DNA of 64,000 nucleotides, taken from the NCBI GenBank assembly GCA_947626435.1, contig CANQSB010000018.1:1-64000 (forward strand). Reading direction: 5' to 3'. This document shows positions 42,207 through 45,407 of the stretch, piece by piece. Position numbers and translations under genes: made by a program. This DNA is from an uncultured Lachnospiraceae bacterium. GTDB lineage: Bacteria; Bacillota; Clostridia; Lachnospirales; Lachnospiraceae. The number at the start of each line of letters is the position of its first letter. The stretch's first letter is position 1. Under the pieces are notes generated by a model. That model had not been told where the DNA came from. It did no database searches and was given only the letters and a program-made list of their open reading frames with translations.

Positions 42207-42599
42207 ATGGATAAACTAAGAATAATGAATAAAAATATATTTGAGAAAAACTTGGTTGCATCTTTAATTGAGTTATTAAAATGTTCATATGAGGAGGTTG
42301 TTACATATAAATTTATGATAACTCCTATCTTTGAAGCAAATAAAAATTATAACTCAAAAGATGATTTTATGCGTCTCACATATTTTAGTGAAAAAAATAT
42401 AAAAGATAGGGTATTTAATATAGGAGATGTTGTAAATTTATTTTCAGCATTAAGTCCGTTATATCCAATGTGGATAAAGGTTTCTATCTATGACAATAGA
42501 GGCAAGGTTATTGAACTAAGACATAGCTTAAGATTTAGGAAACCGAGTCAAATACAAAATGTAGATACGGGACATCCACCATTTATAGTTGTAACATAA
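42207..42599 (+). CDS. AT-rich unknown protein, possible immunity or orphan gene
   Basis: Not assigned. The 130-residue protein is soluble, Lys/Asn/Ile-rich and clearly more AT-rich in its codons than the flanking rng gene, which suggests transfer. Its C-terminus (YPMWIKVSIYDNRGKVIEL, RHSLRFRKPSQIQN, TGHPPF) has a conserved look that I recall from small stand-alone Firmicutes hypotheticals, so it may be complete. GAGG lies about 10 nt upstream. The next reading frame begins at the codon directly after its stop, in the same frame. Confidence 0.6.
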   Translation: MDKLRIMNKNIFEKNLVASLIELLKCSYEEVVTYKFMITPIFEANKNYNSKDDFMRLTYFSEKNIKDRVFNIGDVVNLFSALSPLYPMWIKVSIYDNRGKVIELRHSLRFRKPSQIQNVDTGHPPFIVVT

Positions 42600-42962
42600 G
42601 TGCTATTGATAGGCGTTGACAGGGAATTTTTAGTAAAGATATGTGAGGCATTAAGAAGATATTATGAGGATTATACCAGAATTGTACCAGACTTATGCGA
42701 AGATATCTCTCAGGATATCATAAAAGATTTTGAAAAAAATCCAATATCTATTTTGAACTATATAGATTTAGGAACGTGTGAATTTGATAATTATAGCACA
42801 ACTGATGAAAACATTCCTGTTATTAATTTAAGCGGTGATTGCGCATGGTCAGGAGATGATGGGGTAACAATTGCAGCCAAGAATAATTACCTGCTGTATG
42901 TGGGACCATGGACGGAATTTAATGTTTGGACAAGCACATCTAACGAGATGTTTATTGATTGA
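42600..42962 (+). pseudogene. AT-rich unknown frame, probably 5'-truncated or nonsense-split
   Basis: An open frame of 120 codons that starts (GTG) at the codon immediately after the stop of 42207-42599, in the same frame, with no ribosome site and no internal Met until near the end. The sequence CAWSGDDGVTIAAKNNYLLYVG recalls the C-terminal part of DUF6985-type proteins (from memory, weak). Either the two frames are one gene broken by a TAA, or this is a gene remnant. The stop is inside the palindrome 42961-42980. Confidence 0.4.
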
Positions 42963-42980
42963 ATTGAAATTTTTCAATTC
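42961..42980. terminator. AT-rich palindrome at end of the unknown pair
   Basis: GAATTGAAA and TTTCAATTC are perfect 9-bp arms with a 2-nt spacer, overlapping the stop codon of 42600-42962. It is a possible weak terminator for the accessory pair. Confidence 0.4.
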
Positions 42981-43019
42981 TATTGTTAAAAAGTAATTTA
43001 TCCGAAGGAGGTATATAAT

Positions 43020-43085
43020 ATGTTGTGTCATAGAATAATTGATTTGAGTGTTTTACTCTGCGCAAGGTCTGGTGAGGGGCGATAG
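43020..43085 (+). CDS. Possible 21-codon leader peptide before the MFS gene
   Basis: ATG at 43020 follows GAAGGAGG at an ideal spacing and opens 21 codons (starts MLCHRIIDLS, ends ARSGEGR) before TAG at 43083. The strong ribosome site in front of such a short frame is the main evidence. The 3' half of the frame contains one arm of each of two interleaved hairpins. It may instead be a decayed gene start. Confidence 0.45.
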   Translation: MLCHRIIDLSVLLCARSGEGR

Positions 43086-43112
43086 CTGCGCAGAGGTGGT
43101 TTGATATCGCCC
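43056..43112 (+). promoter_or_regulatory. Interleaved hairpins: possible attenuator or pseudoknot before MFS gene
   Basis: Arm A1 CTCTGCGCA (43056-43064) pairs with A2 TGCGCAGAG (43087-43095), 9 bp perfect. Arm B1 GGGCGATA (43077-43084) pairs with B2 TATCGCCC (43105-43112), 8 bp perfect. The order A1-B1-A2-B2 means the stems are either alternative or form a pseudoknot. The leader ORF stop lies across the end of B1. A TATAAT at 43151 without a good -35 box is a possible separate promoter. Confidence 0.5.
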
Positions 43113-43199
43113 GCATTGGATTTTGCGCTTATGGAATAATTTTGTGGCTGTATAATTTGGCTTTAAAAAGTAAATTTTTCATAAGGGAGATAAAATTCA

Positions 43200-44480
43200 A
43201 TGAACAAAAATTTTAGGAAATATATTGTTTTTTGGCTGAGTCAGTCAATATCTCAGCTTGGCAGCTCTATGACGAGTTTTGCGCTTATTTTGTGGATATT
43301 CGGGCTAAACGGATCGGCAATGACGGTGTCGCTTTTGACGTTTTTCTGGTATGTGCCAAATATCGTGTTTGGCTTGTTTTCGGGCGCTGTGGTGGACAGG
43401 TTCAGTAAAAAGAAGCTTATGCTCATAACGGACAGCGTATCGGCGGCATGCTCCGTGGCTGTGCTTGCTTTAAACGCGCTTGGAGGCTTGGAAATATGGC
43501 ACATTTATTTTGTCAATTTTATTATCGGCGCGATGAATGCCTTTCAGGCGCCCGCGTCTTCGGTGGCGACGGGTCAGCTCGTGCCAAAGGAGAGGCTTGC
43601 CCAAGTGAGCGGAATGAATTCGTTTGCCGGCAACCTCAATACGGTCGTTTCACCTGTGCTTGCGGCGGCGCTTTTTGCCTTTGGCGGGCTTAGGCTGATT
43701 CTGGCGGTCGATTTGGCAAGTTTTGTTTTTGCGTTTGTTGTGCTTGCTACGCTGATAAAAATTCCTGAAAGCCGTGCGGATGTAGGGAAGGGACAATCCA
43801 TATTCAGCGACTGTGCCGAGGGTTTTCGGTTTTTAAGGCGGAATGACGGCATTTTTATGATTATTGTCACTTTGGCTGTGCTTAATTTCTTTTCCGCGCT
43901 TACGTATGAAAATATTCTCTCGCCGATGATACTTTCGAGGAGTGGCGGCAACAGCGCTGTGCTTGGCATTGTCAATGCGGCGACGGGGATGGGCGGTATT
44001 TTGGGCGGTATCATTGTCGCGGGCGGCAGGTTTTCCAAGGACAATATCAAGATGATTTATGTTTCGGCGGGGCTTTCGTTCCTTCTTGGTGATATTTTTA
44101 TGGGACTTGGAAGAAATGCTTTGCTCTGGGCTGTCGCGGGGGTGGCGGCGAGTCTGCCCATACCGTTTATAAATGCGGGACAGAATGTGATTTTATACAA
44201 AAATGTCCCCGAAGAAATGCAGGGGCGCGTATTTGCTGTGAGAAATTCGCTGCAGTTTTTTACTATACCTATAGGCATTCTGCTTGGCGGATTTTTGGCG
44301 GACTATGTGTTTGAGCCGTTTATGAGGACGGAAGGCGGCGCGGCTGAAATGTTTCGGCGCATTGTCGGCGGTGGCGCGGGCAGCGGAATGGCTTTGATGT
44401 TTCTGTGTACGGGAACGTTCGGTAGTATTTTCAGCTTTGTGCTGTATCATCAGAAAAGTATTCAGAAATTTAAGCAGTGA
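43200..44480 (+). CDS. MFS efflux transporter (Mef/MFS_3-like)
   Basis: Twelve-helix major facilitator, probably a proton-driven drug or small-molecule exporter. The 426-residue protein has FWLSQSISQLGSSMTSFAL at the start, the MFS loop GAVVDRFSKKKLMLITD (about 60-76), FVNFIIGAMNAFQAPASSV, and the later NVILYKNVPEEMQGRVFAVRN, a pattern of the macrolide-efflux and enterobactin-exporter branch. The substrate is unknown. GGGAGA lies upstream of ATG 43200. Upstream are the leader ORF and hairpins described separately. Confidence 0.85.
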   Translation: MNKNFRKYIVFWLSQSISQLGSSMTSFALILWIFGLNGSAMTVSLLTFFWYVPNIVFGLFSGAVVDRFSKKKLMLITDSVSAACSVAVLALNALGGLEIWHIYFVNFIIGAMNAFQAPASSVATGQLVPKERLAQVSGMNSFAGNLNTVVSPVLAAALFAFGGLRLILAVDLASFVFAFVVLATLIKIPESRADVGKGQSIFSDCAEGFRFLRRNDGIFMIIVTLAVLNFFSALTYENILSPMILSRSGGNSAVLGIVNAATGMGGILGGIIVAGGRFSKDNIKMIYVSAGLSFLLGDIFMGLGRNALLWAVAGVAASLPIPFINAGQNVILYKNVPEEMQGRVFAVRNSLQFFTIPIGILLGGFLADYVFEPFMRTEGGAAEMFRRIVGGGAGSGMALMFLCTGTFGSIFSFVLYHQKSIQKFKQ

Positions 44481-44575: not shown

Positions 44576-44989
44576 ATGGTTAAATCATTTAGGGAATTAG
44601 AAGAAGAAAAGGTAAGGCATTTTATAGTTCCTTATCAATATGTTAAAGAAGTGCCGAATATTAATTCTATTCACCCGTTAAAGCAGCGAAAGGTTTATAA
44701 TCTATATAAGAACATATTAAATGACCAATTTGCCCAAAATGTAGTTAAGTCTGTATGGATTTTTGGCTCGTCTGTCAATAACTGTTGCAATATAGACAGC
44801 GATATAGATATTATGATTTCCTTAAAGCGGGAGCTGACGGAGGAAGAAACCTGCCTGCTTAATCATATTGTATCCAAGTCGGTTGGCTCAAATTTTGATT
44901 TGGTTATTTTAGAGGAGTTAGACACGAATAAACAGTTATATAAAAATATTATGAAAAATAGGAGATTGATATATGAGTGCGATGCTTGA
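44576..44989 (+). CDS. MNT-type nucleotidyltransferase (antitoxin-like)
   Basis: Minimal nucleotidyltransferase of the pol-beta superfamily. The 137-residue protein has the catalytic pattern FGSSVNNCCNIDSDIDIMI, that is GS followed by DxD, with a third acidic position in NFDLVIL. Such proteins pair with HEPN proteins as MntA-HepT-like toxin-antitoxin modules or as small-molecule modifiers. It overlaps the downstream HEPN gene by 17 nt. AT-rich codons suggest acquisition. Confidence 0.82.
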   Translation: MVKSFRELEEEKVRHFIVPYQYVKEVPNINSIHPLKQRKVYNLYKNILNDQFAQNVVKSVWIFGSSVNNCCNIDSDIDIMISLKRELTEEETCLLNHIVSKSVGSNFDLVILEELDTNKQLYKNIMKNRRLIYECDA

Positions 44990-45407
44990 AAACGCTGTTA
45001 CATGGCTGGAAATGGCAAATGATGCCTTAGATAAATTCAAACAGAATAATACAGATGTAAGGTGGGTTAGAGCCGCCTGCAATCATTATCAGCAGTCTGC
45101 GAAATTTTTTGTTAAAGGGCTTTTGGAAATATTGGGTGAAGAATATGAAAAAGGTCATGACTTGGAGAATAATGCGGAAAAACTTATAAGCTTAATAAAC
45201 GCAAATGATGGCGAAACATGGGATTCATTAAAGCATATAGTTGATGATTTACAGTATTTATCAGATAAATCAGGCATAATAATAAAATGGGAACAAAGAC
45301 CAAGGTATAATGGTGAAAATTTTACATTTAAGGAGAAAACAATATTAGAAACAAAAGAACATATAGATAATATAGATTTCGTTGTAAAGAAATTGAAAAT
45401 ATTATAA
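44973..45407 (+). CDS. HEPN domain protein, partner of the MNT gene
   Basis: All-helical HEPN protein of 144 residues. The segment ACNHYQQSAKFFVKGLLEILGEEYEKGHDL matches the common HEPN helix pair (QQ..K..K..L ... HDL). The sequence RAACNH gives an R-x4-H spacing, but at a helix position where non-nuclease HEPN proteins of the COG2250 type have AxxxQQ, so RNase activity is uncertain. GGAGA lies upstream and the start overlaps the MNT stop by 17 nt, so the two are coupled. Confidence 0.78.
   Translation: MSAMLENAVTWLEMANDALDKFKQNNTDVRWVRAACNHYQQSAKFFVKGLLEILGEEYEKGHDLENNAEKLISLINANDGETWDSLKHIVDDLQYLSDKSGIIIKWEQRPRYNGENFTFKEKTILETKEHIDNIDFVVKKLKIL

Follow-up and report, generated by a model that had tools for sequence, protein, structure and literature searches.

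In the vmlR leader of Bacillus subtilis, a hairpin that contains the upstream open reading frame (uORF), and acts as an anti-antiterminator, is followed by a competing helix and by a hairpin that sequesters the Shine-Dalgarno (SD) sequence, and the stalled ribosome breaks the first of these hairpins (as described in the available sections of PMC9226507). For ermBL, arrest has been reported at codon 10 and translation of the C-terminal part is dispensable for induction (accessible part of PMC8274638). The peptide MefL (MTASMRLR, carrying a +x+ motif) acts via a Rho-independent terminator (excerpts of PMC4335068 and PMC10314930). Here we compare with these systems a leader in an uncultured Lachnospiraceae bacterium, located in the 64,000-nucleotide stretch of DNA that was analysed as a whole (the window), where a short ORF and five helices precede a gene for a putative exporter of the major facilitator superfamily (MFS). 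The original prediction was that a leader-peptide attenuator or a pseudoknot switch controls this transporter, and it is supported by compensatory changes, by a leader conserved as protein and by an order of helix arms that is kept. We consider it likely that the element is a cis-acting, ribosome-sensing translational attenuator of the exporter, driven by nascent-chain arrest and probably by a ribosome-targeting drug. Its features are:

43005-43012, plus strand: leader ORF ribosome-binding site AAGGAGGT, read from the sequence
43020-43085, plus strand: leader ORF, 21 codons from ATG to TAG, translation MLCHRIIDLSVLLCARSGEGR*
43044-43049, plus strand: codons 9-10 (Leu-Ser), the putative arrest site, placed by the end of protein conservation at codon 10 and by the mask test
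43056-43064, plus strand: A1, 5' arm of helix A (anti-antisequestor), CTCTGCGCA, 9 bp in the window
43060-43074, plus strand: C1, 5' arm of helix C (antisequestor), within the leader ORF, 15-bp helix
43077-43084, plus strand: B1, 5' arm of helix B, GGGCGATA, a pseudoknot with A or nested in C
43083-43085, plus strand: leader ORF stop TAG
43087-43095, plus strand: A2, 3' arm of helix A, pairs with A1
43105-43112, plus strand: B2, 3' arm of helix B, pairs with B1
43114-43128, plus strand: C2, shared arm, partner of C1 (ON) or of E (OFF)
43128-43136, plus strand: D1, 5' arm of the SD hairpin (fold of 43128-43190)
43177-43185, plus strand: D2, 3' arm of the SD hairpin, reaching into the first bases of the MFS SD sequence
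43183-43189, plus strand: MFS SD sequence AAGGGAG, read from the sequence
43192-43202, plus strand: E, AAAATTCAATG, includes the MFS start codon, 11 bp with C2 bases 43114-43124
43200-44480, plus strand: MFS exporter gene (putative regulated gene), 426 aa, Pfam MFS_1 and MFS_3

The ORF with its upstream ribosome site, the overlap of its stop codon with B1 and the two stems with alternating arms (A1, B1, A2, B2), all of which had been predicted originally, were found exactly where they had been placed. Helices C, D and E were absent from that prediction and tie the switch to the MFS start site; the accompanying claim that neither stem reaches the MFS ribosome site is correct for A and B but does not extend to the element as a whole, where E covers the start codon and D2 overlaps the SD sequence. 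C1 overlaps A1 by five bases in the window, and helix A is mutually exclusive with C, and C with E, whereas B is compatible with A and with C. The loops of the possible A+B pseudoknot measure 12, 2 and 9 nt in the window, and loop lengths would permit an H-type pseudoknot in most loci. The region 43000-43205 folds better than 200/200 dinucleotide shuffles (z = -3.00); decisive over this single-sequence fold, the conservation of the helices in relatives indicates that they have not arisen by chance.

Indeed, all five helices exceed the thresholds in 71/80 loci selected by the MFS protein alone, and the order A1-B1-A2-B2 is kept upstream of orthologous MFS genes. In an alignment of 34 of the 39 listed sequences, 96.8% of cells are paired in helix A, 92.4% in B and 98.2% in C, with both-side changes in 4/11, 5/7 and 5/15 pairs, respectively. 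For D and E, the covariation set comprises 67 loci (66 distinct) in which C2 lies no more than 80 nt from the start codon, excluding the window as well as L087 and L090, two loci removed by the thresholds in which E is not kept in the window's register; here 85.5% of cells are paired in D, with both-side changes in 4/7 pairs, and 97.2% in E. Both-side changes amount to 36 cells for A+B (11.0 in shuffles), 34 for C+B (8.1) and 67 for D+E (16.7), values that 0/500 shuffles reach in each case, although the tally of E/D pairs that changed on both sides is by itself unexceptional, being reached by 52/500 shuffles. The original prediction would have been undermined had orthologous leaders lacked compensatory changes; both-side changes were found in A, B, C, D and E. 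Since C2 must pair with the leader ORF and also with the start codon, even the start codon covaries: its change from AUG to GUG is matched in the partner arm, and coupled E/C2 changes comprise CAUU/AAUG, CAUC/GAUG and CACA/UGUG. The fourth C2 base pair is U-A in 60, C-G in 17 and A-U in 2 of the 79 leaders used for the swap test and base counts, which had been preselected by the helix thresholds, E included. This base changed six times on the MFS tree, from which L012 and L016 (MFS in pieces) were excluded, and the tree test holds only four independent pairs, all concordant (p = 0.125).

The leader is constrained as protein over codons 2-10 (pN/pS 0.23, 76 loci) and free at codons 11-12 (1.03, same loci), with the consensus MLCHMxIDLS for codons 1-10; this set omits identical leaders and those that are atypical, truncated or of the other lineage (L015, L086, L033, L087, L094, L091, L095, L098 and L082). 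The start codon lies exactly 36 nt 5' of A1 in 71/76 leaders, and a 5-base SD core is present 4-20 nt before the leader start in 67/82 loci, compared with 40% in shuffles. Beyond codon 10, length and frame differ among relatives and many leaders stop near codon 26. By eye, we rejected a slippery frameshift site ahead of the pseudoknot, because codon 9 varies among TTA, TTG, CTA and CTG.

The arrest site was proposed from the alignment before the position of a ribosome was mimicked by masking in silico. This test covered 73 loci, namely the energy set of 82 (which omits identical leaders, L015, L086 and L033) without L087, L090 and loci in which A1 and the start codon are 165 nt or more apart. 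Among P-site codons 1-12, the ON fold is clearly favoured only at codon 9 (65/73 loci) and codon 10 (49/73); at codons 1-8 the median lies near zero or on the OFF side if no pseudoknot term is used, and clearly on the OFF side once the term is included. Across mask edges from +12 to +17, tested on every second locus of the set (37 of the 73), the optimum remains at codon 9 or 10. ON is likewise favoured at codon 24, the last tested (50/73), and helix C is not favoured in 10/82 loci when the first 40 bases are masked. With neither ribosome nor pseudoknot term, the OFF and ON folds hardly differ in energy, the median being 0.75 kcal/mol towards ON (82 loci), and in the window ON is the more stable fold at equilibrium (-57.2 versus -47.5 for OFF). 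Thus, an OFF default needs a folding order as well as the pseudoknot bonus that we assume.

Such an order may arise during transcription. With the leader ORF translated unhindered, the local hairpin A would form first and B would then close the A+B pseudoknot; because A1 shares bases with C1, C2 is free to pair with the MFS start (E). This pairing, beside hairpin D on part of the SD sequence, would prevent the pump from being made. Conversely, a ribosome carrying the nascent chain MLCHxxIDLS would stop at codons 9-10, the most likely cause being a drug that occupies its tunnel or peptidyl-transferase centre, and would then cover the first bases of A1 (CUCU) and little or none of C1. Helix A would then be blocked, C1 would capture C2 with B stacked inside C, and the start codon would be freed. 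B, which fits both states, may keep C1 and C2 together for quick exchange. The signal would be an antibiotic, and the pump probably exports drugs.

The element was found in 14/299 genomes drawn across the window's family, with single loci elsewhere in Bacillota, under comparatively strict filters by which weak matches are lost. Cultured carriers include Konateibacter massiliensis and Dorea sp. D27 (L058, L063). The peptide motif occurs in 8/397 genomes and never in the reversed control, and it precedes this MFS gene in 8/8 genomes that have it. Among 17 near-full-length MFS proteins of at least 52% identity in the 299-genome draw, five lack a match to the leader model; by eye, three of these have no leader, one has a remnant before a TGA-containing frame and one a diverged leader. 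Where found, the leader precedes this MFS clade. It gave no match in NCBIfam and no credible match in phages, viral contigs (one exact 19-mer as the probe) or plasmids. A plasmid search at an E limit of 10 listed 36 records that match in short pieces (the best at E 0.01; two from Enterococcus hirae at E 0.5), which we take as chance. MFS relatives below 60% identity occur in 25 plasmid records, two of them at about 39%. Literature searches returned no match to this switch, and a suspected likeness to the tet(M) leader was unsupported by the searches, those of plasmids included.

A second lineage (subfamily 2) carries a different peptide, MKLCIAxAPCRV*, at approximately the same distance from the switch. 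A, C and E were found by script in 15/18 loci, the others (L113, L138 and L139) being read by eye, and the start codon lies 22 nt before A1 in 12 of the 15. The mask test is best at codon 5 (10/12), where conservation ends and two variable codons follow; it is weaker than in the first lineage, with ON favoured in 8/12 loci unmasked and also at codons 2 and 6.

Slowing at hungry codons, by which the leader would sense the supply of an amino acid such as cysteine, or translation speed in general, is an unlikely alternative to drug-dependent arrest. Cys3 is invariant (76/76; TGT in 38 leaders, TGC in 38), as is Cys14 (76/76), and an early Leu-Cys is shared by most members of both lineages. However, a ribosome waiting at Cys3 (P site at codon 2) yields ON in only 31/73 loci without a pseudoknot term and 11/73 with a term of -5, and one waiting at Cys14 (P site at codon 13) excludes C in the model. 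Leu2, Ile7, Asp8, Leu9 and Ser10 are conserved too, as expected of a tunnel-interacting peptide, and an exporter would be an odd target for starvation. Still less probable is a transcription attenuator, in which the C+B hairpin or another would act on RNA polymerase as an intrinsic terminator. The leaders of mef(A/E) and msr(D) do use transcription attenuation (excerpts of PMC4335068 and PMC10314930), and 6/82 loci have at least six T in the 8 nt after C2; the other 76/82 do not, C2 in the window being followed by TTATGGAA. A scan of 42700-43500 placed its one plus-strand terminator-like site within the MFS gene and detected none in the leader. Moreover, helices E and D occupy the start site and SD sequence and show covariation, neither of which termination would need.

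A small-molecule riboswitch with a pseudoknot aptamer and an incidental ORF would account for the interleaved helices and their strong structural conservation, yet we regard it as very improbable: conservation resides in the helix arms and in codons 2-10, the latter with synonymous change, the A2-B2 stretch ranges from 3 to 59 nt across loci, and, among subfamily-2 leaders whose A loop is short, some have no separate B. No Rfam family reaches its gathering score in the whole window, and within 42940-43260 the sole match up to E 10 is SCARNA7 (E 1.6), far under its gathering score. Least credible of all, to the point of being nearly negligible, is the absence of any leader regulation, with the MFS gene transcribed from the TATAAT at 43151-43156 and the hairpins being chance or relics. 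The original prediction allowed that this perfect hexamer, present in the window and in G017, could be the true promoter, and upstream of the leader the window shows no more than a weak promoter-like pair (8/12). A promoter at the hexamer is unlikely in the window: a good -35 box is missing (by eye, TTGACA is matched in 2/6 bases at best, at a spacing of 16-18), the scan of 42700-43500 detected no plus-strand promoter-like site, and the best pair in this stretch scores 7/12. In 15/82 loci the C2-to-SD stretch is too short for such a pair. Promoter-like pairs scoring at least 9 lie upstream of the leader in 38/81 loci, compared with 16% of shuffles, and the element as a whole is deeply conserved and covaries, which argues against chance or relic hairpins.

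Beyond the attenuator itself, we tentatively raise the possibility, somewhat against our own expectation, that the RNA is a plug-in platform, in which one conserved A/C/E switch has been joined to two or more unrelated arrest peptides (10 and approximately 5 residues). Each peptide would end about two free codons before the switch and would represent a new context-specific arrest sequence, possibly for different gut-made inhibitors, while the pseudoknot helix B, common to both states, would poise the switch in many members, the pseudoknot braking the ribosome above it and also clamping the strands for rapid exchange. If the attenuator reading is true, translation of the pump gene in a set of gut bacteria occurs only upon stalling on a particular nascent peptide, which would yield two new candidate arrest peptides, predict the arrest codon clearly and open a route to the natural inducer.

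The exporter itself, assigned as such by homology, resembles Mef at the level of the superfamily, whereas the closer likeness implied by the original term Mef-like does not hold, as the protein scores 135 bits against the NCBIfam Mef(A) model (cut-off 675). It scores 212 bits against TIGR00900, below the cut-off of this second model, and has no match among PDB sequences at E 0.01. The mef(A)/mef(E) and msr(D) systems likewise place a leader peptide before a macrolide exporter of the same superfamily (excerpts of PMC4335068 and PMC10314930). Here, however, the peptide is not MTASMRLR-like, codons 1-10 in the window contain no +x+ motif and the leader holds no Rho-independent terminator; the word 'pseudoknot' occurs in neither paper. 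The leader of vmlR follows the same three-step order as the window switch, but its uORF has three codons (Met-Ile-Asn), it includes an intrinsic terminator and its target is of the ABC-F type (available sections of PMC9226507), in contrast to the 10-residue conserved peptide, the possible A+B pseudoknot and the MFS target observed here, where no terminator was found. Similarly, cplR of Clostridioides difficile shares translational attenuation with an anti-SD element, in Clostridia as here, but differs in its uORF consensus MR[I/M], its ABC-F target and its additional premature transcription termination (accessible part of PMC10201436); the combination of an approximately three-codon uORF, a terminator and an ABC-F target does not describe the window leader. 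The ermB and ermC leaders share translational attenuation with the window switch (for ermB, accessible part of PMC8274638), but differ in their methyltransferase target, and by eye the leader peptide has no likeness to ErmBL or ErmCL. As in erm-type leaders, the ORF has its own ribosome site and is translated, as judged by conservation, exclusive helices (A/C/E, with E and D) hide the SD sequence and start codon of the target and, in silico, a ribosome at codons 9-10 is predicted to flip the fold. The locus would also provide a well-aligned example of a possible pseudoknot helix that both states retain, and it departs from known antibiotic-sensing switches in its leader peptide and in the unusual interlocking of its RNA fold.

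The leader ORF, its ribosome site and stems A and B, whose arms alternate, lie where the original prediction placed them, as judged by sequence check and folding. The 206 nt from 43000 to 43205 fold more stably than 200 of 200 shuffles (z −3.00), and the minimum-energy fold of this region contains a further helix, C, which was unlisted in that prediction and within which B is nested. Two more elements link the leader to the MFS gene, namely hairpin D, which overlaps part of the MFS Shine-Dalgarno sequence (SD), and helix E, in which, by scripted comparison, the first 11 bases of the downstream arm of C (C2) pair ungapped with a segment that includes the MFS start codon.

43020–43085, + strand: leader ORF
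43056–43064 with 43087–43095, + strand: stem A (arms A1 and A2)
43077–43084 with 43105–43112, + strand: stem B (arms B1 and B2)
43060–43074 with 43114–43128, + strand: helix C, 15 bp (arms C1 and C2)
43128–43136 with 43177–43185, + strand: hairpin D
43192–43202, + strand: AAAATTCAATG, partner of C2 in helix E
43200–44480, + strand: MFS protein gene, 426 aa, with Pfam MFS_1 and MFS_3

Helices A and C are mutually exclusive because A1 and C1 have bases in common, as are C and E because C2 is an arm of both, whereas helix B is compatible with A (as a pseudoknot) or with C (nested). Pairing of C2 with E would hide the MFS start (OFF) and pairing with C1 would free it (ON). The pseudoknot loops measure 12, 2 and 9 nt in the window, with medians of 12, 2 and 13 nt over 73 leaders, lengths that would allow an H-type pseudoknot in most loci; the third loop falls below 8 nt in three of the 73 (3, 6 and 7 nt), and in some loci B1 shares one or two bases with A2.

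Beyond the window, a search of 40 genomes yielded 12 loci, whose MFS identities are 56–93% and two of which (L012 and L016) have the MFS in pieces; A, C, E, a B stem and the leader ORF are present in 13/13 leaders. Locus L005 (genome G003) carries a palindromic insertion of ~60 nt between C2 and the SD, within the D loop, with both D arms intact. A wider set had the MFS protein as its sole criterion; genome contigs confirmed 209 relatives, of which the best 80 were kept, a few organisms being shared with the 40-genome search and two loci (L053 and L055) being identical. All five helices reach fixed thresholds (A 8 bp, B 5, C 12/15, D 5, E 8/11, with B and D taken as the best stem in the region) in 71 of the 80. 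Failures are L060 and L079 (D 4 bp), L087 (E 6/11) and L090 (C 11/15); L042, L048, L049 and L080 are without hairpin A and L086 has no credible leader, so that 75/80 loci carry the leader in some form.

The compensatory changes that the original prediction called for in orthologous leaders are found, as both-side changes, in all five helices. Among 34 aligned leaders, A is 96.8% paired with both-side changes in 4/11 pairs, B 92.4% (5/7) and C 98.2% (5/15), giving 36 both-side-change cells for A and B together versus 11.0 in shuffles and 34 versus 8.1 for C and B, each reached by 0/500 shuffles. For E and D, the alignment comprised 66 distinct C2-to-start-codon sequences, in which pairing reaches 97.2% for E (both-side changes in 3/10 pairs) and 85.5% for D (4/7); together they hold 67 such cells versus 16.7 in shuffles (0/500), and the number of both-side-changed pairs, 7, is matched by 52/500 shuffles when taken alone. 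Sliding one partner by 1–3 columns leaves far less pairing in the alignments of all five helices.

Within E, the pair at C2 base 4 is U-A in 60, C-G in 17 and A-U in 2 of 79 leaders already past the helix thresholds, and is unpaired in the below-threshold L087 and L090. The GUG start codons of L091 and L095 are matched by a C2 beginning CACA. When C2 is swapped among the 79 loci, E pairing falls from 10.54/11 to a mean of 10.21 (maximum of 2000 swaps, 10.32). A quick tree of the 80 MFS proteins requires 6 changes to account for the three states at base 4, or 7 when the single G of L090 is counted as well; its well-supported branches yield four independent pairs, each in the expected direction, a number too small for significance by itself (p 0.125).

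Across 76 leaders, pN/pS is 0.23 over codons 2–10 (pS 0.83, pN 0.19), 1.03 over codons 11–12 and 0.68 over the structure-bound codons 13–19, with 0.83 and 1.44 in the two other frames over codons 2–9. Cys3 is invariant with its two codons equally used (38 and 38), Leu9 occurs in 75 and Ile7 in 73, and a start codon (ATG 66, TTG 3, GTG 2) lies exactly 36 nt upstream of A1 in 71. Past codon 10, leader frame and length vary among relatives: the ORF reaches its stop at codon 22 in the window and in genome G017, at codon 19 in L060, L069 and L076, and at codon 11, ahead of A1, in L078 (MLCHLIIDLS*). Thus, selection acts on the peptide up to codon 10, and the sequence beyond seems to be kept by RNA pairing.

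Toeprints show that a ribosome extends 15 bases downstream of the first base in its P site. A mask of this reach, with codon 9 in the P site, hides CUCU of A1 and ends one base before C1. We stepped the mask through codons 1–24 in 73 leaders and, at each position, weighed the fold constrained to contain E (OFF) against the one constrained to contain C (ON). ON is favoured in 65/73 leaders at codon 9 and 49/73 at codon 10; in unmasked leaders, and likewise at codons 1–8, medians range from −1.9 to +0.1 when no pseudoknot is scored and from −4.6 to −6.9 with a pseudoknot term of −5 kcal/mol. Codons 11–12 give OFF, 13–20 make C impossible, 21–23 give OFF and codon 24 gives ON again (50/73). In 37 of the 73 leaders, moving the mask edge between +12 and +17 does not shift the best position away from codon 9 or 10. 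Protein-level selection stops at the mask optimum, so that two separate measures coincide; the arrest site had been guessed from the alignment before either was run. Predicted folding at equilibrium does not by itself fix the default state: without a ribosome the median difference over 82 leaders is 0.75 kcal/mol towards ON, and for the window ON has the lower energy (−57.2 versus −47.5) unless OFF is credited with the B stack (−16.7) as a pseudoknot.

MFS relatives of ~37–43% identity have leaders with another peptide, M-x-L-C-I-x-x-A-P-C-R-V-stop. In this second lineage A and C are found again, C1 overlapping A1 as in the first, and C2 pairs in the SD region, as GACUUUGC with GCAAAGUC immediately behind the SD core in some loci and as CUUUGCUUCU with AGGAGCAAAG over the core in others. 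By eye, some leaders (L144, L145) show a B stem, and those with a short A loop show none. Among 12 leaders starting 22 nt upstream of A1, Leu3 and Ile5 are invariant and Cys4 occurs in 10, codon 7 being free to vary and codon 6 partly so. Without the pseudoknot term, the mask effect peaks at codon 5 (ON in 10/12, median 3.9) and at codons 7–8 no leader favours ON (0/12), with a slight ON preference also unmasked and at codons 2 and 6 (8/12 each). Conservation and mask results in both lineages thus indicate that two peptides, unequal in length, each stop about two codons short of the switch, the second-lineage case being the weaker. A third peptide, MLYTIKYPTAILL..., occurs in L013 (MFS 43% identity), where 12 codons precede hairpin A, a spacing equal to that of the first lineage; this hairpin has a mismatch, was overlooked by the script and was identified by reading.

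A covariance model of the leader (R1) finds it in 2/398 genomes across the phylum and 14/299 in the family, the window's own genome, with its single match, being in both counts. An MFS match is present at 14 of the 15 loci from these searches, and at the remaining one, L113, the leader precedes the first part of a broken MFS; in L132 a leader remnant precedes an MFS frame with an internal TGA, and leader and MFS seem to decay as a pair in these two. In the family draw, an MFS relative at E 1e-60 is present in 53/299 genomes, and 12 of the 17 near-full-length MFS of at least 52% identity (two more lie in fragments) have a model match. A degenerate peptide pattern matches in 8/397 genomes, 8/8 ahead of this MFS, and its reversal in none. 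Limited searches of plasmids, phages and viral contigs gave no credible leader copy. Outside Clostridia, leader and MFS occur in a Bacillaceae genome, Neobacillus dielmonensis (L074), through either horizontal transfer or a contaminant contig.

Upstream of the leader, a promoter-like pair of at least 9/12 occurs in 38/81 loci (16% of shuffles) and of at least 10/12 in 16/81 (1.9%); between C2 and the SD, 8/82 loci reach 9/12, the stretch being too short in 15. The window's upstream candidate is weak (8/12). The window's genome comprises 3.7 Mb in 98 contigs; among named relatives of the MFS, the nearest (93% identity) comes from a MAG labelled uncultured Lachnospiraceae. At 42207–42962, two small ORFs, of which the second carries DUF6985, separate an RNase E/G gene from the leader; in G017 (L002), RNase E/G-like sequence lies close upstream of the leader, so that these close relatives seem to differ by an insertion or deletion. 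Directly behind the MFS gene, at 44576–45407, a nucleotidyltransferase (Polbeta) gene is followed by an overlapping HEPN gene, likely an MNT/HEPN (type VII) toxin-antitoxin pair; the MntA model falls short of its cut-off.

The exporter had been called Mef-like, which is borne out at superfamily level and not as closer kinship, since it scores 135 bits with the Mef(A) model, whose cut-off is 675, and 212 bits with TIGR00900 (cut-off 319.6). From sequence, we suggest that the leader probably controls translation of the MFS protein, a putative pump, through ribosome arrest on the leader peptide, with a drug as the likely signal. No published description of this leader was among the matches listed in a search covering mostly papers outside subscription. 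A mef-type leader was rejected, since an MTASMRLR peptide and a terminator mark that type (PMC4335068, PMC10314930). The leader described here is predicted to act in the manner of the vmlR (PMC9226507), cplR (PMC10201436) and erm (PMC8274638) leaders, as regards their translational part.
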